From positions 1 to 64,000 of the forward strand of contig NZ_QHJH01000007.1 in the NCBI RefSeq assembly GCF_003947455.1: 64,000 nt of DNA. Reading direction: 5' to 3'. Within the stretch, counting starts at the first letter, position 1; every line of letters starts with the position of its first letter. Positions 11,190-49,783 of this stretch are shown here, in pieces. Under the pieces are notes generated by a model. The model did no database searches, was not told the DNA's origin, and saw only the letters and a program-made list of their open reading frames with translations. The translations under genes were made by a program, and so were the position numbers. The DNA is from Streptomyces sp. WAC 04229. Its GTDB lineage: Bacteria; Actinomycetota; Actinomycetes; Streptomycetales; Streptomycetaceae.

Positions 11190-11202
11190 GGGCGCGTCGT
11201 AC

Positions 11203-12240
11203 GTGACGCGGTACCCGCCGCAGAAGTCGCCCGGAACTCCACCCGACGCCGGCCTGCGGTCCCCACGCGGACACCGCCGCCGGCTCTCGGGCACCGCCCG
11301 CTACACGCTGATCCGGACGGCGACGGCAATGCTCCAGGCAGCCTTCGTGCTGGTCGCCGTGTTCGTCCTCACCTCGCTGCTGCCGGGTGACAGCGTGGAT
11401 GCCGTCCTGGGCGAACAGGGCACCCCCGAACAGCAGCGCCTGGCCCGCGCCGACCTCGGGCTGGACGAGCCCGCCTGGACCAGGTTCGTCCACTGGGTGT
11501 CCGACCTGGGTCACGCCGACCTGGGTCACTCCCTGGTCACCGGCCTGCCCGTCACGGACGAGATCGGCAGCAGGTTCGCGGCGACGGCGGTCCTCGCCGG
11601 CGCGGCGCTGGCGGTCCTCGTCCCGCTCGCCCTCGCGCTGGGCCTGCTGACCGGACTGCGCGAGGGCTCCCTGGCGGACCGGGCACTCAACGCCTCGACC
11701 CTCGCCCTGCACGCCGTACCTGAGTTCGTCCTCGGCCTGCTGCTGACCGCCTGGCTCAGCGTCGGCCTCGGGCTGCTGCCCGCCACCGCCGCCGGACTGC
11801 GCGGCACTGAGATCCTCACCGAACCGGCCGTCCTGATCCTGCCGGTCGGCGTCCTCGTCGCCCGGCAGCTGTGCGACCTCGCCCGGCAGATCCGCATCGG
11901 CGTGGCGGCGCAGACGGGCGGTCCCGTCGTCCGCCACCTGCGCCTGCTCGGCCTGCCCGAGCGCACGATCGTGCTCCGGCACGTCCTGCCCGGCTGCCTC
12001 GCCCCGTCCGTGCAGCAACTGGCACGCTGCGTCGACGGACTGCTCGGCGGCACCGTCGTCATCGAGTCGCTGTTTGCCGTCGGCGGCCTCGGCACCGGGT
12101 TCGTCGAGTCCGTGCAGGACCGCGACATCCCGGCCGTCCAGGGCTACGCCCTGCTGTTCGCGGCGACCGCGCTGACCGTCAACCTCCTCGCCGACCTGAC
12201 CGTGGCCCGCCTGACCCCCCAACGGGAGGAACGCGCGTGA
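11203..12240 (+). CDS. ABC importer permease (DppB/NikB type)
   Basis: A 345-residue membrane protein starting with GTG 13 bp after the lipoprotein gene. About six membrane segments are visible, beginning with a helix near residues 38-60. The cytoplasmic EAA-type loop is present as H-L-R-L-L-G-L-P-E-R-T-I-V-L-R-H-V-L-P, and I-E-S-L-F-A-V-G-G-L-G is typical of DppB/NikB permeases. It would form the transmembrane pore with the fused protein encoded next, overlapping it by 4 bp (GTGA). Confidence 0.9.
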   Translation: MTRYPPQKSPGTPPDAGLRSPRGHRRRLSGTARYTLIRTATAMLQAAFVLVAVFVLTSLLPGDSVDAVLGEQGTPEQQRLARADLGLDEPAWTRFVHWVSDLGHADLGHSLVTGLPVTDEIGSRFAATAVLAGAALAVLVPLALALGLLTGLREGSLADRALNASTLALHAVPEFVLGLLLTAWLSVGLGLLPATAAGLRGTEILTEPAVLILPVGVLVARQLCDLARQIRIGVAAQTGGPVVRHLRLLGLPERTIVLRHVLPGCLAPSVQQLARCVDGLLGGTVVIESLFAVGGLGTGFVESVQDRDIPAVQGYALLFAATALTVNLLADLTVARLTPQREERA

Positions 12241-14747
12241 CCGTCTCCCCGCCCGGCCCCCGTCCGCGCCGCCTCGGCGCCGCGTGCCTGGACGGACTCG
12301 CCCTCGTACTGCTGGGCGTACCGGTGCTGCTCGCCATCCTGGGACCCGGCCTCGCCGGTTCCACCGCACCCGACGCCGCACCGCTCCTGCCGCCCGGCGC
12401 GGGCCACGTCCTGGGCACGGACGTTCTCGGCCGGGACGTTCTCGCGCTCGTCCTCAGCGGCGGACGCTCCGTGCTGGCCATGACGCTGGCCGCGCTCCTG
12501 ACCGCCGGCGCGGTGGGCCTGCCGCTCGGGCTCTTCGCGGCCGGGACCCGCCGCCGCTGGGCCGACGAGGCGGTCATGCGGGGCCTGGACGTGCTGCTGG
12601 CCTTCCCCGCCCTCCTGCTGGTGATGACGCTGGCGGCCTCGGGCCACCAGGACGCCATGACGCTGGTCGTCACCGCCGCGGCGGTACAGGTACCGGCCGT
12701 CACCCGCCTGGTGCGCGCCGCGGCCCTCGCCCCCGGGTGCCGTACGGCGGTGGAGGCGATGCGGATGCAGGGCGCGCCGTGGCACCACATCCAGGGGCGC
12801 TACGTCCTGCGGAGGGTGAGCGCACCGCTGATCACGGACGCGGGCAACCGCGGCACGATGATCCTCGCGCTGCTGGCCTCCGCCAACTTCCTCGGCCTCG
12901 GCCTGCCCACCGAAGCACCCGACTGGGCCGTCCTGGTCGAGCGCAACGCCGAGGCCCTGTTCCTCCAGCCGTACGCCGTCCTCGTCCCGGCCGTGCTGCT
13001 CACCGCCCTCGCCGTCGGCGGCAACCTCACCGCGGACCGTCTCCTGGGCCGGACCCGACGCGCCCAGATCCTCACCGGCACAGTTCCGAAGGCCGGCGGT
13101 GCCGACCCGGCCGCCACGGATCCCGCCTCGGCGACCACCCGTTCACAGACGGCCCGTGCGCTCCACCCCGGGGCCGCCCTCGGCAGCGGGTTCGCCCCCG
13201 GCGCCGTCCGTCCTGACCACGAGCTCGCGCAGGGGCCCGCAGCGGAGCCCCTGTTGGTCTGCCGAGGACTCACGGCCCGCACATCCGCCGGCGCCACGCT
13301 TCTCCATGACGTTTCTCTGGAACTGGGCCAAGGCCGCTGCCTCGCCCTCGTCGGCCCCTCGGGCAGTGGCAAGACCACCCTCGGCCTGGCTGTCCTCGCC
13401 CTCACCCACCCCGGCCTCGGCCTCACCGGCAGCGTCCGCCTGAACGGCACCGACCTCCTGGCCCTGTCACCGCGCGAGCTGCGAGCCGCCCGCGCCGGAA
13501 CCGTCGCCCACCTGCCCCAGGACCCCGCCTCCGTCCTGGACCCGGCCCGACGCGTCGGAGCGGTCCTGCGGGAGCTCGCCGCGCTCCACCACAGCCGGGA
13601 TGCGTCCCCCGCCGGTCCGGTGCGGCGCCGCCGCCGAGTTGCTGCCGCCGAAGACGTTCGGCGGGCCCTGCGCTCCGCCGGGCTCCCCGAGGACGGACCG
13701 CTCACCCGACGGCACCCGCACCGCCTCTCCGGTGGACAGCAGCAGCGCATGGCCCTGGCCACCGCCCTGGTCACGCGCCCCCGTCTGCTCGTCCTCGACG
13801 AACCCACCAGCGGCCTCGACGAGCACACGACCGCGCTCCTCACCCGTAGCCTGCGGGACCTCATGAGCGACGGCACGGCGCTGCTGCTCATCACCCACGA
13901 CGCGCGCCTGGCCGGCGAACTGGCCGACGAGACGGTGGCGCTGCAAGACGGTCGAGTCTTCCGCCGCGAGACAACCGGACGGCCCCCGGTGCCGGCCGAG
14001 GGGGAGCGGGAACACTCCGGCCCCTGCGTTCCGCCACCGGCACCCGAACGGGCTTCGGACGGGGTACGCGCGCACCGGCTCACCGTCATCGGGGACGACC
14101 CGTCCCGCCCCCGACTCTCCCCGGTCGATCTGGTCTTTCCGCCCGGCAGTCACACCGTGGTCACCGGACTCTCCGGTGCGGGCAAGACCACCCTGGCCCG
14201 CGCCCTCGCAGGACTGACCCCGGCCACCGCGGGCCGAGTCGAGCACCGGGGGACGGTGCTTGCCGCCGTCGCGGAGCGCCGGGACCGCGCGGCGCTACGT
14301 GCGGTCCAGTACGTGCACCAGGACACGCGGGCCTCCTTCGACGAGTACCGCTCGGTCATCGACCAGCTCACCTGGACCGCACGGCTGCTGCGCGGCCTCA
14401 CCTCCGCCGAGGCGCGCCAGGAGGCGGAATCACTCGCCCGACGGCTGGGCCTGGCCCCGGACAGCCTGGGCCGCCGCCCGACGGCTCTGTCCGGCGGTCA
14501 GCTCCAGCGCGCCGCCCTGATCCGCGCGCTGACGGCCCACCCCGCACTGCTGATCTGTGACGAGGTGACCTCCGCCCTCGATCCGCCCGTCGCCCGGGCA
14601 ACGGTCGACCTCCTGGCCGCGGAGAGCGAACGGACCGGTGTCGCCGTCCTCTTCGTCACCCATGATCGTCCGCTCTTCGACTCCGTCGCCCACGCGTGGT
14701 TGCAGGTGACCGACGGACGGGTCGAGGTCCGCGGCGCGCGCCGCTGA
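12237..14747 (+). CDS. Fused ABC permease (DppC type) with two ATPase domains
   Basis: An 836-residue single chain holding three subunits that are usually separate. Residues 1-275 are a DppC/NikC-type permease (G-T-D-V-L-G-R-D-V-L start motif, EAA loop M-Q-G-A-P-W-H-H-I). Residues about 340-575 are the first nucleotide-binding domain: Walker A G-P-S-G-S-G-K-T-T, signature L-S-G-G-Q-Q-Q-R, Walker B L-L-V-L-D-E-P-T-S. Residues about 610-836 are the second: Walker A G-L-S-G-A-G-K-T-T, signature L-S-G-G-Q-L-Q-R, Walker B L-L-I-C-D-E-V-T-S. The GTG start has GGAGG in front. Family members normally encode these as three genes, so this is a natural fusion that fixes stoichiometry. The operon ends here. 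Confidence 0.92.
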   Translation: MTVSPPGPRPRRLGAACLDGLALVLLGVPVLLAILGPGLAGSTAPDAAPLLPPGAGHVLGTDVLGRDVLALVLSGGRSVLAMTLAALLTAGAVGLPLGLFAAGTRRRWADEAVMRGLDVLLAFPALLLVMTLAASGHQDAMTLVVTAAAVQVPAVTRLVRAAALAPGCRTAVEAMRMQGAPWHHIQGRYVLRRVSAPLITDAGNRGTMILALLASANFLGLGLPTEAPDWAVLVERNAEALFLQPYAVLVPAVLLTALAVGGNLTADRLLGRTRRAQILTGTVPKAGGADPAATDPASATTRSQTARALHPGAALGSGFAPGAVRPDHELAQGPAAEPLLVCRGLTARTSAGATLLHDVSLELGQGRCLALVGPSGSGKTTLGLAVLALTHPGLGLTGSVRLNGTDLLALSPRELRAARAGTVAHLPQDPASVLDPARRVGAVLRELAALHHSRDASPAGPVRRRRRVAAAEDVRRALRSAGLPEDGPLTRRHPHRLSGGQQQRMALATALVTRPRLLVLDEPTSGLDEHTTALLTRSLRDLMSDGTALLLITHDARLAGELADETVALQDGRVFRRETTGRPPVPAEGEREHSGPCVPPPAPERASDGVRAHRLTVIGDDPSRPRLSPVDLVFPPGSHTVVTGLSGAGKTTLARALAGLTPATAGRVEHRGTVLAAVAERRDRAALRAVQYVHQDTRASFDEYRSVIDQLTWTARLLRGLTSAEARQEAESLARRLGLAPDSLGRRPTALSGGQLQRAALIRALTAHPALLICDEVTSALDPPVARATVDLLAAESERTGVAVLFVTHDRPLFDSVAHAWLQVTDGRVEVRGARR

Positions 14748-21116: not shown

Positions 21117-21134
21117 CGTCGGAGGATGTTGGAC

Positions 21135-21776
21135 ATGGCGGTGTACTCGCTCCCGGAGCTTCCGTACGACTACTCGGAGCTCGAGCCGGTCATCAACCCG
21201 CAGATCATCGAGCTGCACCACGACAAGCACCACGCGGCGTACGTCAAGGGCGCCAACGACACGCTGGAGCAGCTCGCCGAGGCGCGGGACAAGGAGACGT
21301 GGGGCTCGATCAACGGCCTGGAGAAGAACCTGGCCTTCCACCTCTCCGGTCACATCCTGCACTCGATCTACTGGCACAACATGACCGGTGATGGCGGCGG
21401 CGAGCCCCTGGCCGCCGACGGCGTGGGCGAGCTGGCCGACGCGATCGCCGAGTCCTTCGGCTCCTTCGCCGGCTTCAAGGCGCAGCTCACCAAGGCCGCC
21501 GCGACCACCCAGGGCTCCGGCTGGGGTGTGCTGGCCTACGAGCCGCTGAGCGGGCGCCTGATCGTCGAGCAGGTCTACGACCACCAGGGCAACGTCGGCC
21601 AGGGCTCCACCCCGATCCTGGTCTTCGACGCCTGGGAGCACGCCTTCTACCTGCAGTACAAGAACCAGAAGGTCGACTTCATCGACGCCATGTGGGCGGT
21701 CGTCAACTGGCAGGACGTGGCCAAGCGCTACGAGGCCGCCAAGGCCCGCACCGACGTTCTCCTGCTGGCACCGTGA
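21135..21776 (+). CDS. sodF: Superoxide dismutase, Fe type
   Basis: A 213-residue Fe/Mn-family superoxide dismutase. Metal ligands are visible: His in [12 protein letters not shown], His in [10 protein letters not shown], and D-x-x-x-H in [10 protein letters not shown]. The A-Y-V-K-G-A-N-D and G-S-G-W-G-V-L-A-Y segments match Streptomyces SodF, which carries Fe(-Zn) and replaces the nickel enzyme SodN when nickel is scarce. I prefer the ATG at 21135, 9 nt after GGAGG, over the one at 21126, which abuts the ribosome-binding site. It is controlled by the operator at 21097-21116 and followed by a terminator. Confidence 0.93.
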
Positions 21777-21840
21777 CCGCGTAGGTCGTATCGGCGTCCT
21801 GCTCGTGATCGTCTTCTCAGCCTTCACCAGCAGGCCGTGC

Positions 21841-21882
21841 AAGGGGCCCTCCAGCCGGGACGACTCGGCCGGAGGGCCCTTC
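21841..21882 (+). terminator. Terminator after sodF
   Basis: An inverted repeat: AAGGGGCCCTCC at 21841-21852 pairs with GGAGGGCCCTT at 21871-21881 with one bulge; inner bases GCCG/CGGC also pair. It lies 64 bp past the sodF stop and is followed by a T-rich stretch. Confidence 0.75.
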
Positions 21883-22055: not shown

Positions 22056-22150
22056 CAGGCGCGTTACTGGGGGAAGCCGGTGAGACTCCGGCACTGACCT
22101 GCAACCGTGTGCGGCCCTCTCGGCCGCGAGTCGGAATGCCCAGGGCGTGT
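22056..22150 (+). promoter_or_regulatory. Cobalamin riboswitch ahead of the DUF4430 protein
   Basis: In order: GGGGGAAGCCGGTGAGACTC near 22070-22089, GCACTGACCTGCAACCGTG near 22091-22109 (B12 box region), a GC hairpin, and GTCGGAATGCCCAGGG near 22130-22145. About 100 nt of expression platform separates it from the TTG start at 22253. Confidence 0.9.
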
Positions 22151-22252
22151 GTCATTACCGCTTCCCACTGTCATGGTCTGCAGCGCGAAGCCGAGAGCCG
22201 TGCACGGCTGCTCCGGTGGCGGGCCGCGGACCCGTACCAGGAAGGTACAGCC

Positions 22253-22741
22253 TTGCAGCGCATATCCGCCCGACGCGGCATGGTCACCACCGTCGCCCTC
22301 GGACTCGCCCTCGCCACCGCCCCCGCCACCGTCCACGCGCAGGACGCCGCGAACACGAACGCCCCGGTCAAGGTGACCCTGACCGTTCAGGGGCCGGACG
22401 GCCAGCTGTTCAAGGGGAAGATCAAGACCAAGGGACACGACGTGACCACCGCCACCGGTGGCACCCACAGATGCGACGGCACCAACGGCGGCGCCCACCC
22501 CACCGCCGTTCCCACGCCGACGGCCGCTCTCGACGACGCCGCCCGTAAGCGGCACTTCACCTGGGACGGTACCTGGTACGCCTCGTTCGACGACTACTCG
22601 GTGGACACGATCAAGGATGTCAGCGGTGGCGGGGTGGCGTACTGGAACATCTCCGTCAACGGTACGTCCACCCCGGTCGGCGGCTGCCAGTTCAAGCTGA
22701 ACGCGGGCGACAAGGTGACGTTCACCTGGACGGCGTTCTGA
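22253..22741 (+). CDS. Secreted DUF4430 (transcobalamin C-terminal-like) protein
   Basis: A 162-residue exported protein. I choose TTG at 22253, preceded by GGAAGG; ATG at 22280 would also leave a signal peptide. Residues 1-32 form the signal (R-R near the start, A-rich core, V-H-A-Q cleavage). The mature protein is a single beta domain ending V-A-Y-W-N-I-S-V-N-G-T-S and L-N-A-G-D-K-V-T-F-T-W, the pattern of DUF4430, the domain that forms the C-terminal half of animal intrinsic factor and transcobalamin. Two Cys (T-H-R-C-D and G-G-C-Q-F) may form a disulfide. Control by a cobalamin riboswitch makes a role in extracellular corrinoid binding the leading idea. It is convergent with the BtuF-like gene. 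Confidence 0.85.
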   Translation: MQRISARRGMVTTVALGLALATAPATVHAQDAANTNAPVKVTLTVQGPDGQLFKGKIKTKGHDVTTATGGTHRCDGTNGGAHPTAVPTPTAALDDAARKRHFTWDGTWYASFDDYSVDTIKDVSGGGVAYWNISVNGTSTPVGGCQFKLNAGDKVTFTWTAF

Positions 22742-22751
22742 CTGCCGCGGC

Positions 22752-23663
22752 TCACAGGCGGCGTGCCACGGCCGGCGTGACCGCTTCTCCGGCCCGTACC
22801 CCGTGCAGGACGTGAGCCAGCACCTCCGCTCCACGCACCACCCGGGGTCCTGGACGGTTGAAGTAGGCGGGGCCGTCCAGGACCCACACCCGATCGGCGC
22901 GCACGGCCGGCAGGTCCTGCCATCCGGGCAGGCCGGTGAGCAACTCCCGCTCCCGCAGAGTTCGTTCCGGTGGGAATCCGCATGGCAGGACCAACAGCGT
23001 GTCCGGGTGGGAGGCGCGTACCGCCTCCCACGTCATCGGCTTGGTGTGCTCCCCGGGTGCGGCGATGAGCGGCTCGCCGCCGGCCGCCGTGATCTGCTCG
23101 GGAACCCAGTGTCCTGCGGGCCACAGGGGGTCCAGCCATTCGATCGCCACCACCCGGGGGCGGTCACGGCCGGCGACCGCGGCGCGCACCCTGTCGAGGC
23201 GGGCGGAAAGCTCGGCCCGACGCTGCTCGGCGCGCTCTCGCACGCCGAGCAGCGTCCCGACCGTGACCAGGCAGTCCAGCACGTCGTCCAGCGTGCGGGG
23301 CTCCAGGCTCAGCACGCGGGTCTCAGCGTCCAGGAGGCGGACCGTCCGGCTGACGCTCTCGTAGGAGACGGCGCACACGTCGCACAGGTCCTGGGTGAGC
23401 ACGACCTCGGGGCGCAGCGCCGCGAGTGCCTCGGTGTCCAGGGTATAGAGCGAGGATCCGGAGTGCGCCGATCCGCCGACGGCGTCGGAGATCTCCCGGC
23501 TGGTGAGCCGGTCCTGATCCAGGTCGGCTCCGGTGACCACGGGGACCGAGGCGACGTCCCTCGGTGGCCAGTCGCATTCGTGGGTGCGGCCGACGAGCTG
23601 TGCGGACAGGCCGAGCTCGGCGACGATGTCGGTCGCGGCAGGTAGCAGGGAGACGATGCGCAT
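22752..23663 (-). CDS. BtuF-like cobalamin-binding protein without signal peptide
   Basis: A 303-residue protein of the BtuF/helical-backbone periplasmic-binding class. It begins [19 protein letters not shown], the standard opening of cobalamin-binding proteins, followed by G-R-T-H-E-C-D-W-P. Later motifs are L-T-Q-D-L-C-D-V-C and [15 protein letters not shown]. No signal peptide or lipobox precedes this fold, so it is probably cytoplasmic or held by other means; many actinobacterial relatives share this. It follows the barrel-DUF4430 gene by 29 bp on the same strand, so it is under the minus-strand riboswitch at 25225-25330. Confidence 0.87.
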
Positions 23664-23692
23664 GCCGCGACCCTACGACTCGGGCAGCGGCG

Positions 23693-25111
23693 TCAGACGC
23701 CCCAGCGCACGGCGATCGTGTCGCCCACGCCCACGGTCGTGCCGCGGGTGGCGGTGGTGAAGGAGGAGCCGTCGAGGCTCACCTTCCAGGTGTTCGAGCC
23801 GCTGTTGGCCTTGCCGTTGAGGGAGGTGACGGTGCCCGTGCCGGAGGACGGGGTCACCGAGGTGACGCAGCCGGACGGTGTGGCCGAGGCGACGGCGGCG
23901 TCGAGGACGGCGCCGAGGGTGGTCGTCGAGGCGGTCGGGGTGAGGGAGACGGAGCACACCTTGAGGTTCCCCGCCCCGTCGTCCAAGGTCAGCGCGAGTT
24001 TCGCCGCCGTACCGGAGGTGAAGGTCCCCTGGCCCACCCACTGCGGGGCGCCGGGGGTGGTCGGCACGGGCGGTGCGGCGGTGAATCCGGCGCCGGCCAC
24101 CGCGCGCAGCCCGTCGATGGAGGCGTAGGCGGACGGGCTGGTGTCACTGGGCAGGTACTTGAAGCCGCCGCCCGGGTTGAACTGCTGGGCGATCAGGAAG
24201 TCCAGCGGGGTCTTGCCCATGGAGGTGAGGAAGTCGCCGGTCTGGGGATTGATGCCGCAGGCGTTCAGGCCGGAGACCGCCCAGCCGTTGGAGTTGGTGT
24301 TGACGCCGAACATGGCGTTGAAGGCGCCGCTGTTCGCCACCAGCTTGCTCTTGAGGAATGCCTTCGCCTGGACGATGTCCGTGTCGGTGTTGGGCACGCC
24401 GGACACGCACAGGGCGGCCATCGCGGCGCCGGTCATGTCGATGTCGGAGGTCTTCGCGAGTTCGGTCGCGTTGCCCTCGGCCTTGCTGAAGTTCCAGCCG
24501 CCGTCGTTGTGCTGGTTGGCCCGTATCCGGGTGACCATCGTCTCGCGCAGCTTCTGCGGGACGCGTACCTGGCCGGACTGGGTCTTGGCGCCGTTCAGGG
24601 CGAGGGCGGCGAAGACGGTGCCGTTGAAGTTGGCGGACGGGCCGAAGTATCCGGGCTCGGCGGTCTGCCAGTAGCGGTAGATGTCGGCGATCAGGTTGCG
24701 GGAGGCGGAGACGCGGGCGGGGTCGATGCCGGCGGCGTACGCGTTGAGGGTGGCGCGCTCGTAGTCGGTGACGACCGGGGAGGCGGAGGGCCAGCCGCTG
24801 GTGGCCAGCAGGTTGCGGTAGACCGTTCTCGCGTTCTTGCTCGCGTCGCCGCCGGGTGTGACGTCCACGGCGGCGGTGCCGGCGGCGGCGAAGGCGCTGA
24901 ACGCCCATTCGTTGGAGAGACCTGACCCGGCGTACGAGCCGTCGGTGGCCTGGAGCGTCTTGAGGTAGGCGACGCCGTTGGTCTTCGAGGTGGCGATCTG
25001 GGTGGGTGTCGCGGTCGCCGAGGCCGGCACGGCCGTCAGGGCGAAGGCGCCGGCCGCGGCCACCGCGGTCAGTGCGGAGCGGCGCAGGGACGGGGACACG
25101 GTACGGGGCAT
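23693..25111 (-). CDS. Secreted alpha/alpha-barrel plus DUF4430-like protein (transcobalamin-like architecture)
   Basis: A 472-residue exported protein starting at ATG 25111 (AGGAG 7 nt upstream). Residues 1-33 are the signal peptide. Residues about 38-355 are a prenyltransferase/squalene-cyclase-type alpha/alpha barrel with repeated turn motifs: L-Q-A-T-D-G-S-Y, N-D-G-G-W-N-F and N-P-G-G-G-F. The catalytic DxDD of true cyclases is replaced by D-I-D-M. Residues about 370-472 form a beta domain ending N-T-W-K-V-S-L-D-G and V-G-V-G-D-T-I-A-V-R-W, resembling DUF4430. This order, helical barrel then beta domain, is that of animal intrinsic factor and transcobalamin. It is transcribed with the BtuF-like gene under a cobalamin riboswitch. 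A role in binding corrinoids is inferred. Confidence 0.85.
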   Translation of the reverse strand: MPRTVSPSLRRSALTAVAAAGAFALTAVPASATATPTQIATSKTNGVAYLKTLQATDGSYAGSGLSNEWAFSAFAAAGTAAVDVTPGGDASKNARTVYRNLLATSGWPSASPVVTDYERATLNAYAAGIDPARVSASRNLIADIYRYWQTAEPGYFGPSANFNGTVFAALALNGAKTQSGQVRVPQKLRETMVTRIRANQHNDGGWNFSKAEGNATELAKTSDIDMTGAAMAALCVSGVPNTDTDIVQAKAFLKSKLVANSGAFNAMFGVNTNSNGWAVSGLNACGINPQTGDFLTSMGKTPLDFLIAQQFNPGGGFKYLPSDTSPSAYASIDGLRAVAGAGFTAAPPVPTTPGAPQWVGQGTFTSGTAAKLALTLDDGAGNLKVCSVSLTPTASTTTLGAVLDAAVASATPSGCVTSVTPSSGTGTVTSLNGKANSGSNTWKVSLDGSSFTTATRGTTVGVGDTIAVRWGV

Positions 25112-25224
25112 GGGCTGCTCCTGGGCTGGGGGACGCCGACCGGTCCCGTGCCGTCGCCGGGCCTCGTGATGCGCGGGCCGGAGCAGCGGGTGCGGCCGCC
25201 GTCCGGGACGCGTGGACCGGCTTC

Positions 25225-25330
25225 CGAGGTGCTGTGCCGCCTGGGCATTCGGGCTCGGGGCGGCCCCCTGCCGTCCCACACCGCTGCGCGTCAGCCCCGG
25301 ACTCCCACCGGGTTCCCCCACTCGGCAGTC
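25225..25330 (-). promoter_or_regulatory. Cobalamin riboswitch for the barrel-DUF4430/btuF operon
   Basis: Read on the minus strand from 25319: GGGGGAACCCGGTGGGAGTC, then GGGGCTGACGCGCAGCGGTG (B12 box region), and further on GAGCCCGAATGCCCAGGC near 25240-25257. These are the same elements as in the neighbouring plus-strand riboswitch, in the opposite orientation. Confidence 0.85.
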
Positions 25331-25449
25331 CGGGACGGTACCCGACGTGCGTACCGGCCGCCAGAGGTGCCCTCGGCATCTCAAGTGGCGGTTTAGTGCC
25401 CCGTCTTGACGCTTTCGGTGAACCGTGCTCAAATCCGCCTGATACGCCT

Positions 25450-25540
25450 TGAGTTCCAGGGGAAGCCGGTCGAAGTCCGGCGCTGACCCGCAACCGTGGG
25501 CCCGGCAGCTGCCGGGCGAGCCGGAATGCCTGGAGCGTTC
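25450..25540 (+). promoter_or_regulatory. Cobalamin riboswitch for the barrel-ECF transporter operon
   Basis: AGGGGAAGCCGGTCGAAGTC near 25458-25477, GCGCTGACCCGCAACCGTG near 25480-25498, a GC-rich hairpin, then GAGCCGGAATGCCTGG near 25518-25533. It is divergent from the riboswitch at 25225-25330; the two share a promoter region of about 120 bp. Confidence 0.92.
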
Positions 25541-25666
25541 ATCAGCAACAGACGCCGTCGCGGACTACGGCGTGGTGCGACCGGCTTCCGTACGTGGGCT
25601 CCGTCCCCGCCGGAGGCCCTCACCCACGCCATCGTCTCGTGCCGGGCAGGCAACGAGGGGGCCGCG

Positions 25667-28462
25667 GTGGGGAGCGAGCAGCGAAGAGACGGACGGGTGG
25701 GAGCGAGCCCCGGTCCGTTGGCGGCACTGGTGACCGCCTTCCTGGTGCTGGCGGCCGTCTGCGTGACCTTCCTCACCACAACGTCCGCCGCCGCGGACCC
25801 GATCGGGGAGTGCACCGCCACGAAGGGCGCCGTCGTCGCGGTCGACTTCGGACCGTTCGGCGGTGACCTGGTGCGCGGCTGCGACCCGACGCCGACCACC
25901 GGTTACGAGCTGCTGCACGACGGCGGCTTCGGCACCACGGGCACCGGCCACGACGGTCCGGGCTTCATCTGCCGCATCGGCCACGGCTCCTTCGACGGCG
26001 GCACCCAGTACCCGACCCCGGACCGGGACGACTGCGTCCTCACCCCGCCGGCGACCGCGTACTGGTCCTACTGGGTCGCCTCGCCGGGCGAGGACGAGTG
26101 GTCCTACAGCCAGTACGGCGCCATGAGCCGGAATCTCAAGGACGGCGATGTCGACGCCTGGGTGTACGGCGGCACGGACATCGGCGGCGGCACGGGCGGG
26201 CCCGACTTCAGCCCCGACGACGTCCGCGCGGGCGAGACGGGTGGCACCCCGGACCCGGGAACACCGACGGGAGCGCCGGGGGAGGTCGACGCGACCGCCG
26301 CGGCAACCTGGCTGAAGGACCGTCTCACCGACGGTGAACGCGTCGTCGACGACGGCAGCGACGTACCCAACTACCTCCTGACCACGGAGACGGCCTACGC
26401 CCTCGCCGCCACCGAAGGCAAGAGCGCCGCTCTCGACAAGGTCACCGCCTTCCTCGCCGCCCACGCCGACGACTACGCCTACCCGAACGGCACCGGCGAG
26501 GCCCCCGACGCCACCGCCGCCGCCCGCTTGGCCCTGCTGGCCGAGAGCACCGAGGCGGATCCGCGGGCCGTCGGCGGACACGACCTTCTCGGCGACCTGG
26601 CGGCCCACGTGTGCGCGGCCGGCCCCGAATCCGGCGAACCCACTCCCGGCTGCACCGCCAAGGGCGACTTCCGCAACGCCGGTTACACCGAGGGGCAGGC
26701 CCTGTCCGTCCTCGCGCTCCTGCGCGCAGGTACGGCACCGGCGGCCGAGACGGTGGACCGGCTGACCCAGATGCAGTGCCGTGACGGCGGAGTCACCAGC
26801 GTCCTGATCCGCCCCGGCGAGAACTGCGACGGCGACCCGGCCACCACCGGTCTGGTGGCCCTGGTCCTCGACCAGGTCGGCGGCCATGACGAGGCCGTCA
26901 CCAAGGCCCGCGGCTACCTGGCCAAGATCCAGCGCGATGACGGCGCCTTCCCCGGCTACACCGGCGCCACCGACGGCAGCGTCTATGCCACGGCCTATGC
27001 CGCGCAGGCCCTGCACGGACTGGGCGACACCGAACGCGCCGACGCTGCCGTCGGCTGGCTGTCCCGTCAGCAGCTCGACGGGGGAGGCTTCGGCTTCGAG
27101 GAGGGCGCCACCGACCCCGCCCCCTACCCGACCTCGGCCGCCGTCCTCGCGGGCACGCACACCAGCCTGGCCACCCTGACCACGAAGAAGGCCGAGCCGA
27201 CCGACCCGCCGACCTCTGAGCCTCCCACCTCCGAGCCGCCCACTTCCCAGCCTCCGACCACGGAGCCCGGCACCCCGCCTCCGGGAGTGGGTCCCGACCT
27301 GAAGAAGGGCGTCGCCTATCTCACCGACGCCGCGCGGCTGAAGCAGGGCCACTACCACCTCTTCGACCCCAAGTCCCCCGAAGCCGACTTCGGCCTGACC
27401 ATCGACACCGCCTACGCGCTCGCCGCCACCGGCCTGGACAACAACACGCTGCGCGGCATCGTCGACTTCATCGACGACGGCGGCAAGGACGGGGCGGGCA
27501 AGAGCATCCGCGACTACACCGGTGTCGGCACCGCCTACGCGCAGGGCGGCGCCATCGGCAAGACGGCGCTGCTCGCCCAGGCGGTCGGACGCGACGCCCG
27601 CGACTTCGCCGGCCTGGACCTCATCGCCGCTCTCGAAAAGGGCACCTGCGCCAAGAGCACCCTTCCGAAGAGAGGGTGTGCGGCCAAGGGCAACTACACC
27701 TACGCCGAGTCCGTCTTCAAGCAGTCGCTGGGCGTCATGGCGCAGCTGCGCGCGGGTGAGAAGGAGGCGGCCCAGGAACCGCTCGCCTACCTGGCGAGCC
27801 TCCAGCAGGACAACGGGGCCTGGCCCAGCCTGATCCCGTCCAGCGGTGATTCCGACGTCGACTCCACCGCCATCGCCGCCATGGCCCTGGACATGGCGGG
27901 CGGCGCGGAGGCCGAGCAGGCCGTCGACCGGGCGCTCGCCTGGCTGGCCTCGCGGCAGCTTCCCGGCGGTGGCTTCCCGGGCACGGTGGGTATCTCGGTC
28001 AACTCCACCGGCCTCGCGGTGCAGGGGCTGTCCCTCGACGCCTCCCGGTACGCCGACGAGATCGCCGGGGGGCGGAAGTTCCTGGCCGGCCAGCAGAATG
28101 CCGACGGCGGCTTCAACACCTCGGCGGACGGGCAGCGCGGCTCCGACCTGCGCGCGTCCGCCCAGGCGGTGAGCGGTGCCACCGGCATCTCCTTCGGTGA
28201 GCTGGAACGCAGTCTGGCCGGTACCTCACCGCAGCCCACCCCGGACCCGAGCGACGGCGTCCCGGACATCGTCACGCCGGGCGACACCTCGGGCGGATAC
28301 GGCGCCTCCGGCGGGCAGGAGGCGTCCGGCGGCGGTGGCGCGCTCGCCTCCACCGGCGTCCAGGTCGGCCTCCTGGCCGCGATCGCCGCGCTCATGGTGC
28401 TGGCCGGGTGGCGCGTCGCGGTCACGGCACGGCGCAGGGCCACGGCGGAGGGCGGACGATGA
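25667..28462 (+). CDS. Surface protein: DUF4430-like domain plus two alpha/alpha barrels, LAxTG anchor
   Basis: A 931-residue exported protein; the GTG at 25667 follows GAGGGG. Residues 1-43 are a signal peptide. Residues about 44-185 form a Cys-containing domain with a T-A-Y-W-S-Y-W strand and L-K-D-G-D-V-D-A-W-V-Y, resembling DUF4430. Two homologous alpha/alpha barrels follow (about 205-505 and 545-845), each with Q-x-x-D-G-G-type turns and a paired-Cys loop ending G-C-x-A-K-G. A Pro/Thr linker separates them. The cyclase DxDD motif is D-V-D-S in the second barrel, arguing against catalysis. Near residue 894, L-A-S-T-G plus a hydrophobic helix and Arg tail form a class E sortase signal. It heads the ECF transporter operon, so it probably displays a ligand (corrinoid) binder on the cell wall. 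Confidence 0.85.
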   Translation: MGSEQRRDGRVGASPGPLAALVTAFLVLAAVCVTFLTTTSAAADPIGECTATKGAVVAVDFGPFGGDLVRGCDPTPTTGYELLHDGGFGTTGTGHDGPGFICRIGHGSFDGGTQYPTPDRDDCVLTPPATAYWSYWVASPGEDEWSYSQYGAMSRNLKDGDVDAWVYGGTDIGGGTGGPDFSPDDVRAGETGGTPDPGTPTGAPGEVDATAAATWLKDRLTDGERVVDDGSDVPNYLLTTETAYALAATEGKSAALDKVTAFLAAHADDYAYPNGTGEAPDATAAARLALLAESTEADPRAVGGHDLLGDLAAHVCAAGPESGEPTPGCTAKGDFRNAGYTEGQALSVLALLRAGTAPAAETVDRLTQMQCRDGGVTSVLIRPGENCDGDPATTGLVALVLDQVGGHDEAVTKARGYLAKIQRDDGAFPGYTGATDGSVYATAYAAQALHGLGDTERADAAVGWLSRQQLDGGGFGFEEGATDPAPYPTSAAVLAGTHTSLATLTTKKAEPTDPPTSEPPTSEPPTSQPPTTEPGTPPPGVGPDLKKGVAYLTDAARLKQGHYHLFDPKSPEADFGLTIDTAYALAATGLDNNTLRGIVDFIDDGGKDGAGKSIRDYTGVGTAYAQGGAIGKTALLAQAVGRDARDFAGLDLIAALEKGTCAKSTLPKRGCAAKGNYTYAESVFKQSLGVMAQLRAGEKEAAQEPLAYLASLQQDNGAWPSLIPSSGDSDVDSTAIAAMALDMAGGAEAEQAVDRALAWLASRQLPGGGFPGTVGISVNSTGLAVQGLSLDASRYADEIAGGRKFLAGQQNADGGFNTSADGQRGSDLRASAQAVSGATGISFGELERSLAGTSPQPTPDPSDGVPDIVTPGDTSGGYGASGGQEASGGGGALASTGVQVGLLAAIAALMVLAGWRVAVTARRRATAEGGR

Positions 28463-29400
28463 GCCGCCCGCGCCTCGCCGGGGCGACGGCCCGGGCGACG
28501 GTGGCCCTGGGCGTGACCGCCGCCGCACTTGCCGTCACCGCACCCCCGGCCGCCGCCGACCCCCAGCCCATGGGCCGGTGCACGACCACGTCCGGCGTCG
28601 TCCTCGCGGTCGACTTCAGCGACTGGGGCGGCCCGCTGTTCCGGTCCTGCGGCACGACGCCCACCACCGGCTACGAACTGCTCAACCAGGGCGGCTGGCG
28701 CACCACGGGCACCGGACACGACGGTCCGGCGTTCATCTGCCGCATCGGCTACAGCGGGTATCAGAACGGCAAGCAGTTCCCGCCGCCCTCCCAGGACGAC
28801 TGCGTGCTGACTCCTCCCGCGTCCGCGTACTGGTCGTACTGGCACGCGGACCGGGGCGAGAACACCTGGGAGTACAGCCAGCTCGGCGCCATGCTCTACA
28901 AGCCCAAGCCCGGCAGCGTCGACCTGTGGGTCTTCGGCGGCACCGACATCGGGGGCACCAAAGGCCGGCCCACCGTCACCCCGGACCAACTGCGCGCCCA
29001 CAACACGAAGCCGAGCGGCGACGCGGGCAAGCCGGCCTCCAACGAGAAGGCTCCCGAGCTGCCCCCGGACGTCGACACCGGCCCGGCACCGGAACGGCGG
29101 AGCCCCGAACGTCCCGCACCCGCGCCCACCGCGTCCAAGAAGCCGGCACCCAGGAAGTCCGAGTCGAAGAAGCCCGAGCCGAGCGCAAGCGCCACACCCT
29201 CCCCTTCACCGTCCGCCACGCCCAGTTCCTCGGCCGTCGCGGCACCGCGCCCGAGCACCCGAGTGGTCGACGCGGCCCCTGCCGCCGACGCCCCGCACGA
29301 CACCGGTTCCCTCGTGCCGGTGGTCACCGGTGTCTCGCTCGTCGTCCTGATCGGAGGCGCCGCGGCCTACGCGGCCCGCCGGCGCCGTCGTACCGAGTGA
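28459..29400 (+). CDS. Membrane-anchored DUF4430-like domain protein
   Basis: A 313-residue protein overlapping the previous gene by 4 bp (ATGA). Residues 1-33 are a signal peptide ending A-A-A-D. Residues about 34-180 are clearly homologous to the N-terminal domain of the preceding protein: T-T-G-Y-E-L-L, T-T-G-T-G-H-D-G-P, F-I-C-R-I-G, D-D-C-V-L-T-P-P and A-Y-W-S-Y-W recur in the same order. A long Pro/Ser/Lys linker (about 185-275) would span the cell wall, and a C-terminal hydrophobic helix with an Arg-rich tail anchors it in the membrane. No LAxTG is present. It may pass ligand from the wall-bound protein to the ECF transporter; that is inference. Confidence 0.83.
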   Translation: MSRPRLAGATARATVALGVTAAALAVTAPPAAADPQPMGRCTTTSGVVLAVDFSDWGGPLFRSCGTTPTTGYELLNQGGWRTTGTGHDGPAFICRIGYSGYQNGKQFPPPSQDDCVLTPPASAYWSYWHADRGENTWEYSQLGAMLYKPKPGSVDLWVFGGTDIGGTKGRPTVTPDQLRAHNTKPSGDAGKPASNEKAPELPPDVDTGPAPERRSPERPAPAPTASKKPAPRKSESKKPEPSASATPSPSPSATPSSSAVAAPRPSTRVVDAAPAADAPHDTGSLVPVVTGVSLVVLIGGAAAYAARRRRRTE

Positions 29401-30563
29401 GCGGCGTGTCCCGTACGGCCGTGCAGGCCCTCGCCGCCCCGTCCGGCCCGCCGCCGGACCGGGGCGGCCGACGCCTGCCGCGCATCCTGCACCCGATGGC
29501 CTGGTGGGTGTGGGCGCTGGCGCTCGCCACCGCCGTCAGCCGCACCAACAACCCACTGCTGCTGTTCCTCGTCCTCGCCGTCCTCGGCTACGTCGTCACC
29601 GCCCGGCGCACCGAGGCACCGTGGGCCCGCGGCTTCAAGTACTACCTGTACCTGGCCCTGACCGTCGTGGCCATCCGGGTCGTCTTCCGCGCCGTCTTCG
29701 CCACCGGCATCACACCCCGCGACCACTTCCTGTTCTCTCTCCCGCACCTCCCCACCCCCGACTGGTACGCGGGCATCCAAATCGGTGGGCCGGTATCGCT
29801 GGAGGCGCTGCTGTCGGCGGCGACCGACGGGCTGCGCCTGGCGTGCATGCTGTGCTGCATCGGCGCCGCCAACACCCTCGCCAACCCCAAACGGGCCCTG
29901 CGCGTCCTGCCGGGCGCGCTGTACGAACTGGGCGTCGCCGTCACCGTCGCCATCAGCGTGGCCCCGCAGCTGGTACAGAGCGTGCAGCGCGTCGTACGGG
30001 CCCGGAAGCTGCGCGCCGGCGACACCAAGGGCATGCGGGCCCTGCGCGGCGTCGTCATCCCGGTGCTGGAGGACGCCCTGGAACGCTCCCTGCGCCTCGC
30101 CGCCGCGATGGACTCCCGAGGTTACGGCCGTGCGGGCCGGGCCACCCGCCGCTCCCGCCGGATCACCGGCGCTCTGATACTGCTCGGCATGTGCGGCCTG
30201 TGCGCAGGCGCCTACGGGCTGCTGGACGCCACCGCGCCCTCCTTCCTGGGCCTGCCCGCCATGGGGCTCGGCGCGCTGCTGTGCGTGGCCGGCCTGCGCC
30301 TGGGAGGCCGGCGGGTCACCCGCACCACCTACCGGCCCGACCCCTGGCGCCTGCCCGAGTGGGCGGTGGCCGGCAGCGGAGTCCTGTCGGCCGTCCTGCT
30401 CTTCGCCAACCTCGGCTACGACCCCGCCCAGCTCAACCCCACGTTCTACCCCCTCACCTGGCCCGACCTGCCCCTCGTACCGACGGCCGCGATCCTGCTC
30501 GCCGGCACGGCCGGTTTCCTCGCACCCCCGCCCAGCCCCGTCCGGAGAGCCGACGCCCCGTGA
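29397..30563 (+). CDS. ecfT: ECF transporter transmembrane subunit EcfT
   Basis: A 388-residue membrane protein starting at GTG 29397, overlapping the previous stop (GTGA). It has about six to eight membrane helices. The EcfT coupling region is recognisable as A-R-K-L-R-A-G-D and L-A-A-A-M-D-S-R-G-Y-G-R, where paired A-R-x motifs contact the ATPases. EcfT links the substrate-specific S subunit to the ATPases in energy-coupling-factor importers. The gene order T-A-S with overlapping frames shows one transporter. The extra N-terminal and C-terminal lengths are usual for actinobacterial forms. Confidence 0.9.
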   Translation: MSGVSRTAVQALAAPSGPPPDRGGRRLPRILHPMAWWVWALALATAVSRTNNPLLLFLVLAVLGYVVTARRTEAPWARGFKYYLYLALTVVAIRVVFRAVFATGITPRDHFLFSLPHLPTPDWYAGIQIGGPVSLEALLSAATDGLRLACMLCCIGAANTLANPKRALRVLPGALYELGVAVTVAISVAPQLVQSVQRVVRARKLRAGDTKGMRALRGVVIPVLEDALERSLRLAAAMDSRGYGRAGRATRRSRRITGALILLGMCGLCAGAYGLLDATAPSFLGLPAMGLGALLCVAGLRLGGRRVTRTTYRPDPWRLPEWAVAGSGVLSAVLLFANLGYDPAQLNPTFYPLTWPDLPLVPTAAILLAGTAGFLAPPPSPVRRADAP

Positions 30564-32167
30564 TCACCTTCGAGCAGGTCACCATCCAGTACGACGACGC
30601 ACCCGAACCGGCACTCCGGGACGTCGACCTGACGGTGGAAGAGGGCGAACTCTGCCTCGTCGTCGGGCACACGGGCGTCGGCAAGTCGACCCTCCTCGGC
30701 GCCGTCAACGGGCTCGTGCCGCACTTCACAGGTGGCACGCTCTACGGTCGCGTGACCGTCGACGGCCGGGACACGGCCCACCACCCGCCCCGCGAGCTGG
30801 CCGACATCGTCGGCGTGGTCGGCCAGGACCCCATCGACGGCTTCGTGACCGACACGGTCGAGGAGGAACTCGCCTACGCCATGGAGCAGTTGGCGATAGT
30901 GCCGGGCACCATGCGCAAACGCGTGGAGGAGACACTGGACCTGCTCGGCCTCGCCGACCTGCGCCACCGGGCCCTGTACGAACTCTCCGGCGGCCAGCAG
31001 CAACGTGTCGCCATCGGCTCGGTGCTCACCGCCCACCCCCGGGTCCTGGTCCTCGACGAACCGACCTCCGCGCTGGACCCGACGGCCGCCGAGGAGGTCC
31101 TCGCCGCGGTCACCCGCCTCGTCCACGACCTCGGGGTCACCGTCCTCATGGCCGAGCACCGGCTCGAACGCGTCGTCCAGTACGCCGACCGCGTCCTCCA
31201 CCTGCCCGGTGACGGCCGCGCCCGCATCGGACCCGCCGCCGAGATCCTGCGCACGTCGACGATCGCCCCGCCGATCGTCGAACTGGGCCGGGCGGCCGAC
31301 TGGTCACCCCTGCCGCTGTCGATCCGCGACGCCCGCCGTGCGGCCGCCCCCCTGCGCACCGAACTGGCCGACCGCCCCCCGGCCCCTGTCCGCCCGGCCA
31401 CGGCCCAGGAGCGGCGCAAGCTTCTGACGGCGCGCGGCATCACCGTCGCCTACGGGGGCGTCCCCGCCGTACGGGAGGTCGACCTCGACCTGTACGCGGG
31501 TGAGGTGACCGCCCTCATGGGACGCAACGGCTGTGGCAAGTCCTCGCTCCTGTGGGCCTTGCAGGGGTCGGGCCCGCGCCGAGCCGGGACGGTGAAACCG
31601 GTCGACGGCCCCGATCCGCGCGACGTGCCCGCCGCGCGGTCCCGTCGACTCGTCGGACTGGTCCCGCAGACGCCCTCCGATCTGCTCTACCTGGAGAGCG
31701 TGAAGCAGGAGCTCGACCAGGCGGACACCGAGTCGGGCACCACCACCAAGGCTCGCACCGTACTCGACCGACTCGCTCCGGGCATCGACGACGCCACCCA
31801 TCCCCGCGACCTGTCCGAGGGACAGAAGCTGGCCCTCGTCCTCGCCATCCAGCTCTCCGCCGCGCCCCGGGTCGTCCTGCTCGACGAGCCCACCCGCGGC
31901 CTGGACTACCGGGCCAAGACCGCACTGATCGGTGTCGTGAACGCCCTCGCGGCGGAAGGCAGGGCGGTCGTGATCTCCACCCACGACGTCGAGTTCGCCG
32001 CCCGCGCCGCCGACCGGGTCGTCGTCATGGCCGAGGGCGACGTCGTCGACGACGGGCCGACCGCCGACGTCATCGTCTCCTCGCCCGTCTTCGCGCCCCA
32101 GACGGCGAAGATCCTCGCGCCGCTGCCGTATCTGACCGTCGACCAGGTGAAGGCGGCCCGGTCATGA
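30560..32167 (+). CDS. ecfA: ECF transporter ATPase, two fused domains (EcfA-EcfA')
   Basis: A 535-residue protein with two ABC domains. The first (about 1-235) has Walker A G-H-T-G-V-G-K-S-T, the signature L-S-G-G-Q-Q-Q-R and Walker B V-L-V-L-D-E-P-T-S. The second (about 285-525) has Walker A G-R-N-G-C-G-K-S-S, a variant signature L-S-E-G-Q-K-L, and Walker B V-V-L-L-D-E-P-T-R-G. In many ECF systems these are two genes. ATP hydrolysis here would power uptake through EcfT and EcfS. Start GTG overlaps the ecfT stop. Confidence 0.92.
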   Translation: MITFEQVTIQYDDAPEPALRDVDLTVEEGELCLVVGHTGVGKSTLLGAVNGLVPHFTGGTLYGRVTVDGRDTAHHPPRELADIVGVVGQDPIDGFVTDTVEEELAYAMEQLAIVPGTMRKRVEETLDLLGLADLRHRALYELSGGQQQRVAIGSVLTAHPRVLVLDEPTSALDPTAAEEVLAAVTRLVHDLGVTVLMAEHRLERVVQYADRVLHLPGDGRARIGPAAEILRTSTIAPPIVELGRAADWSPLPLSIRDARRAAAPLRTELADRPPAPVRPATAQERRKLLTARGITVAYGGVPAVREVDLDLYAGEVTALMGRNGCGKSSLLWALQGSGPRRAGTVKPVDGPDPRDVPAARSRRLVGLVPQTPSDLLYLESVKQELDQADTESGTTTKARTVLDRLAPGIDDATHPRDLSEGQKLALVLAIQLSAAPRVVLLDEPTRGLDYRAKTALIGVVNALAAEGRAVVISTHDVEFAARAADRVVVMAEGDVVDDGPTADVIVSSPVFAPQTAKILAPLPYLTVDQVKAARS

Positions 32168-32982
32168 CGACGACCGCCGCCATCCGGCTGACCCCACGCA
32201 TCGCAGTCGTCATGGTGCTGTCGGCGTTCCTCGGGATGGTCGCCTTCTTCTGGCCGTTCGTTGTGGCACCCGGGAAGTTCGGCTCGAACTACGCGCCCCC
32301 GCTCATCTTCGGCGTGCTCCTGGTGCTCGTCCTGTGCGTGGTCCTCTCGGAGATCGCCGAGGGCGGCATCGACTCCAAGGCGCTGGCCATGCTGGGCGTC
32401 CTGTCCGCCGTGAACGCTGCCCTGCGACCCCTGGGCGCCGGAACCGCCGGCATCGAAACCGTCTTCTTCGTCCTGGTCCTGGCAGGCCGCGTCTACGGCC
32501 CCGGCTTCGGCTTCACCCTCGGCTGCACCTCCCTGTTCGCCTCCGCGCTCATCACCGGCGGGGTCGGGCCCTGGATGCCGTACCAGATGTTCGGCTGCGC
32601 CTTCGTCGGGATGCTCGCCGGATTCCTCCCCCGGGCCACTGGCCGCCGCGAGGTGCTGATGCTGGCCGTCTACGGTTCCCTGTCCGGGTATCTCTTCGGC
32701 TTCCTCCTCAACCTCTCCTTCTGGCCGTTCTCCCTGGACCCCAACAGCTCCATCGCCTACCTGCCCGGACTGCCCTTCACCGAGCAGTGGCAGCGCTACA
32801 TCGCCTTCGACATCGCCACGTCCCTGGGCTGGGACACCGGCCGGGCGGTCACCAACTTCGTGTGCATCCTGCTGGCGGGGCCGGCGGTGCTGACGACCTT
32901 CCGGCGGGCCGCGCGCAAGGCCCGGTTCCGCGCTCCCGTGCGCTTCGCCGAACCCCGGACGGCCGATTCCGAACCCACCTGA
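32164..32982 (+). CDS. ecfS: ECF transporter substrate-binding subunit EcfS (cobalamin or precursor likely)
   Basis: A 272-residue membrane protein with six or so helices, starting at ATG inside the ecfA stop. It is an S component by size, topology and position. It lacks the M-H-I-P-D-G start of CbiM, so it is not the usual cobalt-specific subunit. Known S components for B12 (BtuM, CbrT) are shorter, so this may be another solution. The riboswitch at 25450-25540 and the barrel/DUF4430 genes in the same operon point to cobalamin or cobinamide. It is the last gene of the operon. Confidence 0.85.
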   Translation: MTTTAAIRLTPRIAVVMVLSAFLGMVAFFWPFVVAPGKFGSNYAPPLIFGVLLVLVLCVVLSEIAEGGIDSKALAMLGVLSAVNAALRPLGAGTAGIETVFFVLVLAGRVYGPGFGFTLGCTSLFASALITGGVGPWMPYQMFGCAFVGMLAGFLPRATGRREVLMLAVYGSLSGYLFGFLLNLSFWPFSLDPNSSIAYLPGLPFTEQWQRYIAFDIATSLGWDTGRAVTNFVCILLAGPAVLTTFRRAARKARFRAPVRFAEPRTADSEPT

Positions 32983-33038: not shown

Positions 33039-33061
33039 ATATAGTCGCGAGTACAAGGCCC

Positions 33062-33205
33062 GCGGTGCAGGGAAGCCGGTGTGATTCCGGCACGGTCCCG
33101 CCACTGTGACCGGGGAGTACGCCGTCGAGCGGTACGCCACTGACGAGTTGGATGTCGGGAAGGCGGACGGCGCGCGCTGATCCGGGAGTCAGGATACCGG
33201 CCGCG
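33062..33205 (+). promoter_or_regulatory. Cobalamin riboswitch ahead of the valine-catabolism operon
   Basis: GGTGCAGGGAAGCCGGTGTG near 33064-33083, then GGCACGGTCCCGCCACTGTG near 33089-33108 and ACCGGGGAG near 33109-33117, then a variable stem and GGAGTCAGGATACCGG near 33184-33199. The same strong B12 core as in the first riboswitch is present. The next protein-coding gene of normal size is mmsA, 200 bp further on. Confidence 0.88.
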
Positions 33206-33244
33206 GGATGTTCCGTGTTGTCCACGAGGATGGAGCTGACACGC

Positions 33245-33404: not shown

Positions 33405-34928
<1,524 letters not shown>

Positions 34929-45729: not shown

Positions 45730-48951
<3,222 letters not shown>

Positions 48952-48955
<4 letters not shown>

Positions 48956-49750: not shown

Positions 49751-49783
49751 ACAGCGGTGCCCGGCGAACCACCAGTATCGCCA

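Follow-up and report, generated by a model that had tools for sequence, protein, structure and literature searches.

A transcobalamin-like two-domain protein encoded beside an energy-coupling factor importer in a probable corrinoid uptake locus of a Streptomyces-like actinobacterium

We analyzed a 64,000-nucleotide stretch of contig NZ_QHJH01000007.1 (the window) from an 8.17-Mb genome whose host was judged Streptomyces-like by its nearest relatives. The locus at positions 22070-32982 probably encodes a system that captures and imports corrinoids (vitamin B12 or cobinamide). It consists of three units, each headed by a cobalamin riboswitch: the gene of a small DUF4430 protein (unit 1); on the minus strand, the gene of the two-domain protein TORB followed by a BtuF-like gene (PF01497; unit 2); and TOR2, S22, EcfT, EcfAA', and EcfS (unit 3), the last three being the parts of an energy-coupling factor (ECF) importer (Table 1). 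An initial annotation had read the locus as a bacterial counterpart of intrinsic factor and transcobalamin coupled to such an importer. Its genes and coordinates proved right in domain and open reading frame scans, and the importer is complete as claimed there, with PF02361, two PF00005 stretches, and PF12822 all over their cut-offs.

The fold of TORB carries the comparison with the animal proteins. Its AlphaFold2 model, built from 43 alignment rows (predicted local distance difference test [pLDDT] 87.6; predicted template modeling score 0.86), contains helices at residues 36-339 and a beta domain from residue 370 on. Searching the PDB with this model gave 81 matches at E≤0.001. Among the best 50 of the 81, ranks 1-15 were all transcobalamin, haptocorrin, or intrinsic factor, with E values of 1.3e-8 to 1.7e-6 and 454-485 alignment columns each, thus spanning both domains; the top structures included transcobalamin 7qbe (1.3e-8), 2bb6, and 8ixt, haptocorrin 4kki, and intrinsic factor 3kq4 and 2pmv. 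After rank 15 (from 2e-6), the same best 50 comprised farnesyltransferases, terpene cyclases, and similar proteins, mostly over ~300-390 columns. The domain order that the initial annotation had seen in this protein was therefore borne out by structure prediction and fold search. The match emerged solely with the predicted structure; PDB sequence searches with TORB alone or with its alignment yielded no carrier, their matches being squalene cyclases and further proteins, all with weak E values. Like the animal carriers, TORB has the toroid first and the beta-grasp domain second and is apparently secreted; unlike them, it adjoins an ECF importer and has no PF01122 match.

At the level of sequence models, TORB matched squalene-cyclase and prenyltransferase models under cut-off. 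PF14478 (DUF4430) was matched by 24 of the 43 aligned TORB members at E≤1 (best 2e-4), and by the window's TORB at residues 427-470 with 12.9 bits, under the cut-off of 23.8. The profile of the TORB beta domain matched the small DUF4430 family at 66%, and toroid controls matched a set of 20 DUF4430 sequences at 0.2-0.3%; the set is what was left of 30 loci plus 7 far proteins after sequences with stops, short sequences, and motif-less sequences had been dropped. Localization was judged from hydrophobic 19-mers with a threshold of 1.6. TORB has one such N-terminal stretch from residue 14 (1.62) and no other membrane segment, and it looks like a soluble, secreted protein without an anchor. Its four invariant cysteines (235, 285, 386, and 415) fit an exported protein.

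The setting of TORB was compared across 70 loci (L numbers denote loci), obtained in one scan of the GTDB-species collection with a seven-row TORB alignment and fetched together with flanks of at most 10 kb. Two conserved TORB peptides served to pick them out, which favors close relatives (57-88% identity), and since the loci come from related species, the counts are not independent events. The hosts were Streptomyces, Kitasatospora, Actinacidiphila, Dactylosporangium, Micromonospora, and an actinomycete metagenome-assembled genome. TORB was divergent from TOR2-S22-EcfT-EcfA-EcfS, in exactly this order, in 53 of the 56 loci whose flank on the ECF side reached 9 kb or more. Deviants were L076, without TOR2 and S22 matches, L081, without ECF matches in the flank, and L080, without the whole ECF side. 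This order count is safer than the count of 68 for S22 matches, which is inflated because the S22 query also matches the TOR2 N-terminal domain. A BtuF-like gene was nearby in 18 of the 70 loci. For alignment purposes, the window's TORB was joined by those of 42 of the 70 loci (alignment A2; left out were 3 for length or a late start, 21 near-duplicates, and 4 by choice, L036, L055, L081, and L093), and its TOR2 by those of 45 of the 68 loci with this gene (alignment A3; left out were 9 for length, 9 near-duplicates, and 5 by choice, L028, L031, L053, L059, and L088).

Two further arrangements were noted. At L080:9074-11443 (Actinacidiphila epipremni), a riboswitch, a DUF4430 gene, and TORB are in line on one strand, with no ECF genes in the flanks; this is a natural DUF4430-TORB unit. 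At L182:7575-15137, in the same-genus genome G044, genes for an ECF ATPase, a toroid, and DUF4430 proteins are on one strand with a weak cobalamin riboswitch (26.9 bits) ahead, and a strong one (91.6 bits) is on the other strand, beside the weak one.

Three cobalamin riboswitches were found where the initial annotation had placed them, although two of the three score under the Rfam gathering score of 31.5; a genome-wide search with RF00174 gave 16 matches at E≤0.001, of which the three of the locus were the weakest. We therefore followed them across the loci with a core pattern written from the window's own riboswitches, allowing up to 3 substitutions. A divergent core pair was present between the TORB and TOR2 genes in all 68 loci having both. 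The pattern matched 137 times in 46 kb of TORB-TOR2 intergenic DNA versus 55 times in the remaining 1293 kb of the loci, and it had no match in 393 kb of base-shuffled sequence made from 20 of the loci. Because the divergent pair is kept throughout, the intergenic DNA is enriched, and shuffled sequence gave nothing, the two riboswitches under the cut-off are more than chance. Furthermore, in the distant loci L077, L082, and L084, the full pair was recovered by the Rfam models (29-37 bits, E≤0.002), with four of the six riboswitches over the gathering score. L080, the fourth locus checked in this way, is without the second toroid gene and had a single riboswitch (44.2 bits) before its DUF4430-TORB unit. 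Together with the conserved gene order, the riboswitches support the claim that TORB belongs to a B12-controlled ECF uptake system.

The core pattern was found upstream of the small DUF4430 gene in 17 of the 26 loci having this gene. In L046, L048, L053, L055, L064, and L067, it is directly after EcfS on the same strand and looks like part of the ECF operon; in L035, L043, and L056, it is neither behind a core nor directly after EcfS.

When 295 other genomes of the phylum were searched with the TORB alignment, 8 proved to have distant relatives of the TORB toroid (E 1e-11 to 1e-16), and each of these 8 genomes falls outside the class. EcfA was near the toroid in all eight regions, EcfS was found in seven, and EcfT in six; in L107, EcfT or EcfS was not picked up as a separate open reading frame, and L106 starts at EcfA. 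The complete operons encode a large exported protein, an anchored protein of ~320-370 residues, EcfT, EcfA, EcfS, and the toroid, which is the last gene product of the ECF operon and has a membrane helix at its end, as placed by eye. The anchored protein before EcfT was a DUF4430 protein in 4/4 scanned (58.7-64.1 bits; 8e-16 to 2e-17), and the large exported protein matched a PQQ-type propeller model in 2/2 scanned. A cobalamin riboswitch of 89-116 bits leads each of the six distant operons with upstream DNA (110.7 bits in the sixth), a count outside which are the L106 and L110 operons, cut by contig ends. The TORB toroid profile is closest to these distant toroids (99.8%, 293 columns); TOR2 reached 94.9%. 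TORB appears to unite in one protein two parts that elsewhere are separate and anchored within one B12-controlled ECF operon, and the step may have run from separate to fused proteins. That the same parts are fused in TORB and split between anchored proteins of distant ECF operons is the strongest argument for a joint action of toroid and beta domain on a corrinoid.

TOR2 matched squalene-cyclase and prenyltransferase models over cut-off, and toroid Pfam models were found in 46/46 aligned members. PF01122 was matched weakly by 13 of these 46 at E≤1 (best 4.8e-4), and the NCBIfam SCO2321 family scored 127.9 bits (cut-off 300). In the predicted structure, two toroids were modeled, and the SCO2322-type N-terminal domain was modeled at low confidence; in the fold search, terpene cyclases came first and transcobalamin only at rank 44. 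The C terminus (LASTG, a membrane helix, and an Arg tail) is a sortase-type anchor. Class E sortases recognize LAxTG, and this motif (60 cases) or a similar one was present within the last 60 residues in 63/63 TOR2 homologues with a complete C terminus; the genome has seven sortase matches. TOR2 and S22 each have one hydrophobic 19-mer stretch at each end, and the S22 domain is that of the TOR2 N terminus (profile match 100%).

The initial annotation had also seen DUF4430 or DUF4430-like beta domains in several of these proteins. This held for the small protein (PF14478), but was not demonstrated for S22 and the TOR2 N terminus. The SCO2322-type domain matched DUF4430 profiles at 14% when the combined set was used (in ordered register) and at 2% with the TOR2 N-terminal domain alone, compared with 0.2-0.3% for controls; against 7 far DUF4430 proteins, the values were 0.3% and 0.2%, and none of 18 members had a Pfam DUF4430 match. 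A DUF4430 ancestry of this domain is unproven. The small DUF4430 protein itself matched the profile of other DUF4430 proteins at 92%. Its N terminus is moderately hydrophobic and signal-like by eye in 11 aligned sequences, with no 19-mer reaching 1.6, and a conserved W/Y/F, also placed by eye, precedes the YWNISVNG stretch. Its ATG is at 22280, and translation could also begin at a TTG located a few codons upstream.

The BtuF-like protein is present beside the system as had been claimed, with one correction: it has no signal peptide and no hydrophobic 19-mer over the threshold. Likewise, 16 of 17 listed homologous open reading frames begin without a leader, and the match to the 17th (L041) starts only at query residue 67. 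The protein is thus probably cytosolic and possibly a cytosolic corrinoid binder. It matches the solved vitamin B12-binding protein 5ysc at 3.7e-7. In L039, L040, L041, L045, and L053, the BtuF-like gene is divergent from a riboswitch-mmsA unit. Of the importer proteins, EcfAA' had as its best NCBIfam model "energy-coupling factor transporter ATPase" (267.4 bits, under the cut-off of 315).

Table 1. Features of the corrinoid locus in the window
Feature	Position	Strand	Evidence and remarks
Riboswitch core 1 (RF00174)	22070..22141	+	27.8 bits, under cut-off 31.5; upstream of small DUF4430 gene
Small DUF4430 protein (BDOM), probably exported	22271..22741	+	PF14478 30.1 bits, cut-off 23.8
BtuF-like protein without signal peptide, probably cytosolic	22752..23663	-	PF01497 78.6 bits; second gene after TORB
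TORB, apparently secreted two-domain protein	23693..25111	-	Toroid ~residues 36-342, beta domain ~355-472
Riboswitch core 2, upstream of TORB	25244..25317	-	30.8 bits, slightly under cut-off 31.5
Riboswitch 3, upstream of ECF operon	25406..25553	+	33.4 bits, over cut-off 31.5
TOR2, exported	25667..28462	+	SCO2322-type N-terminal domain, two alpha/alpha toroids, sortase-type anchor
S22, SCO2322-type exported protein, C-terminal membrane helix	28459..29400	+	NF040672 24.2 bits, cut-off 85
EcfT transmembrane subunit	29460..30563	+	PF02361 CbiQ 43.5 bits, cut-off 25
EcfAA' double ATPase	30557..32167	+	Two ABC_tran (PF00005) stretches
EcfS substrate-specific membrane subunit	32164..32982	+	PF12822 33.8 bits, cut-off 30.7

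From these data we propose the following course of events, in which the import role is surer than the rest and the order of hand-over is a guess. At low adenosylcobalamin, the riboswitches would permit expression. TORB would bind a corrinoid outside the cell, as the small DUF4430 protein may also do, and would hold it sandwiched between toroid and beta domain in the fashion of transcobalamin. The anchored TOR2 and S22 may then accept the corrinoid or enrich it at the surface, EcfS would receive it, and EcfT-EcfAA' would import it with ATP; inside, the leaderless BtuF-like protein may bind or buffer it. A more specific version is tentative and rather doubtful: TORB could be a freely diffusing B12 carrier that picks up corrinoid in the medium and then docks on a toroid/beta relay, anchored in both wall and membrane, from which an ECF importer of its own would be supplied. 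The whole would be a full bacterial counterpart of the route of intrinsic factor and its receptor, with TORB arisen by fusion of the separately anchored toroid and DUF4430 proteins that persist in deep actinobacterial lineages.

Several observations weigh against a corrinoid capture-and-import role or against the likeness to the animal carriers. The whole superposition of TORB on transcobalamin is poor (template modeling score 0.33-0.39 by query, root mean square deviation ~19 Å, 12-15% identity). We read this as a different placement of the two domains, so that the model of TORB would agree with transcobalamin in fold and domain order, not in relative domain placement. The toroid alone is closer to squalene-hopene cyclase (Z 23.1) than to intrinsic factor (Z 19.2; 243 residues, 3.1 Å), in a comparison with VIA-align that covered mainly the TORB toroid and the second TOR2 toroid, with the beta domain outside its coverage; the carrier match therefore depends on a toroid being followed by a beta domain, and not on the toroid by itself. 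The TORB beta domain profile matched DUF4430 under the usual trust level (26% with the 7 far proteins, 60% with the 20 sequences). PF01122, the eukaryotic cobalamin-binding protein family, was matched by TORB neither in the search of its own genome (E≤10) nor among the 43 members (E≤1). Moreover, the insert before strand 3 of TORB (residues 410-431) has valines and no aromatic residue. An aromatic residue at this insert is described as central to B12 binding in transcobalamin in a passage of PMC1949818, and the position is called hydrophobic in one of PMC1796856. Among solved S-components, none matched EcfS significantly (best E 1.4), an absence that proves nothing for such divergent proteins.

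Distribution and host add to these points. TORB is patchy: only 7 of 61 genomes of the family, its own included, have it, and none of the 9 other same-genus genomes in that sample does. The genome has CobN (1119 bits) and CobS (153.9 bits), and judged by these genes, the host probably makes B12 itself; the gain would therefore be salvage rather than need. The bacterial systems treated in passages of PMC1796856 are "usually" in genomes without key B12 genes, from which the CobN/CobS host is a deviation, not an exclusion. No riboswitch was detected at E 0.05 in L175, the one canonical Streptomyces locus examined, where a loose pattern with 5 substitutions matches upstream of the toroid gene.

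It is unlikely, in our estimate, that the importer serves another B12-related solute, such as cobalt, a corrinoid precursor, or a lower-ligand base, which the toroid/beta proteins would then bind. Cobalt transport is also under cobalamin riboswitches, according to a Streptomyces lividans table in PMC8079986, EcfT falls in the CbiQ family, and the genome has B12 synthesis genes. Yet the S-component matches PF12822, with no CbiM or CbiN model listed for it, and a transcobalamin-type two-domain binder would suit a large corrinoid, not a metal ion. We consider it improbable that TORB is secreted chiefly to keep corrinoids from competitors or as a store: the apparently soluble, anchorless protein and a host that probably makes its own B12 would suit this, but TORB is paired divergently with the ECF operon in the 53 of 56 loci described above, and distant lineages have the toroid anchored inside that operon. 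That the toroids are terpene cyclase- or prenyltransferase-type enzymes with an incidental ECF neighborhood, as their Pfam and NCBIfam matches to squalene cyclases and prenyltransferases and the nearness of the lone toroids to squalene-hopene cyclase and drimenyl diphosphate synthase would have it, is very improbable, and we rejected it because DxDD, the catalytic motif of class II terpene cyclases, is missing in 70/70 TORB and 68/68 TOR2 sequences (some partial), the proteins look exported, and gene order and riboswitches are conserved.

The corrinoid capture-and-import reading is not new in its core. In passages of Burroughs et al. 2007 (PMC1796856), the SLBB superfamily is defined from the transcobalamin beta domain; bacterial toroid-SLBB fusions in both orders are described, with secretion, wall anchors, and operons with CbiO and CbiQ; B12 scavenging is predicted, and the animal carriers are proposed to come from Gram-positive bacteria. 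For this clade, low-GC Gram-positives, planctomycetes, and euryarchaea are named there, and the words "Streptomyces" and "riboswitch" occur nowhere in the main text. A passage of the companion paper (PMC1949818) repeats the idea of bacterial counterparts briefly. The central claim of the initial annotation is supported here, and its outline had been anticipated by that prediction. Like those operons, the window's locus has exported or anchored toroid and DUF4430 proteins in several paralogues beside CbiO/CbiQ (EcfA/EcfT); unlike them, it is marked by three riboswitches and includes a carrier-like soluble protein as well as a double toroid of the sortase type, and its host has genes for B12 synthesis. 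The present analysis adds an actinobacterial form, evidence from riboswitches, the fold match at the level of the PDB, and a comparison of split with fused proteins.

The locus shares with ECF-CbrT, a characterized cobalamin importer, an ECF transporter tied to cobalamin. That system is described, in passages of PMC5997447 that mention no extracellular carrier, as a shared-module S-component, whereas the window's S-component is without a significant solved match. A related gene arrangement is the canonical SCO2321/SCO2322 cluster of Streptomyces (L175), with the same order of toroid, YWSYW-type protein, and EcfT/A/S; the window's proteins, in contrast, are far under the model cut-offs of these families, and L175 has no TORB in the 15 kb fetched. 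The canonical SCO2322 family scored under cut-off in the window's genome and over it in 7/7 other same-genus genomes of another sample. Among the papers listed from the open literature, which excludes subscription journals, none was relevant to SCO2320-SCO2325 and none was an experimental study of a bacterial protein of this kind.

Further cobalamin riboswitches were found elsewhere in the window. A strong one (33046-33219, plus strand; 92.6 bits) is located before a methylmalonate-semialdehyde dehydrogenase gene (33405-34928, plus strand), the apparent start of a valine-breakdown operon. MmsA was matched in 12 loci, and in 10 of these a riboswitch core was just upstream of it. Others precede a class I ribonucleotide reductase pair (riboswitch 49567-49789, genes 46787-49087, both on the minus strand; best model class 1b) and a B12-independent methionine synthase (52770-52966 and 50269-52686, minus strand), both of which are known types of cobalamin riboswitch target. 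A cobalamin riboswitch before an operon of the valine-breakdown kind has already been reported for Streptomyces griseus in a passage of PMC8914203. Another riboswitch (9362-9540, plus strand) is ahead of an ABC transporter operon (9660-14747, plus strand) whose substrate-binding protein has binders of nickel and of glutathione as its nearest matches, far under cut-off; the operon perhaps encodes a predicted importer of cobalt or a cobalt complex. In addition, a sodF small RNA (21794-21880, plus strand; 59.3 bits) lies just downstream of a superoxide dismutase gene (21126-21776).

How Gram-positive bacteria take up B12 across a thick wall without known importers is poorly known, and a bacterial origin of the animal B12 carriers has been proposed, not shown. 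The locus offers a compact system that is marked by riboswitches and occurs in relatives of Streptomyces that can be cultivated, and its two-domain protein is ready for expression. If the corrinoid reading is true, it would also give a function to SCO2321/SCO2322-type proteins, which are now named by locus tag or matched to squalene cyclases and prenyltransferases.

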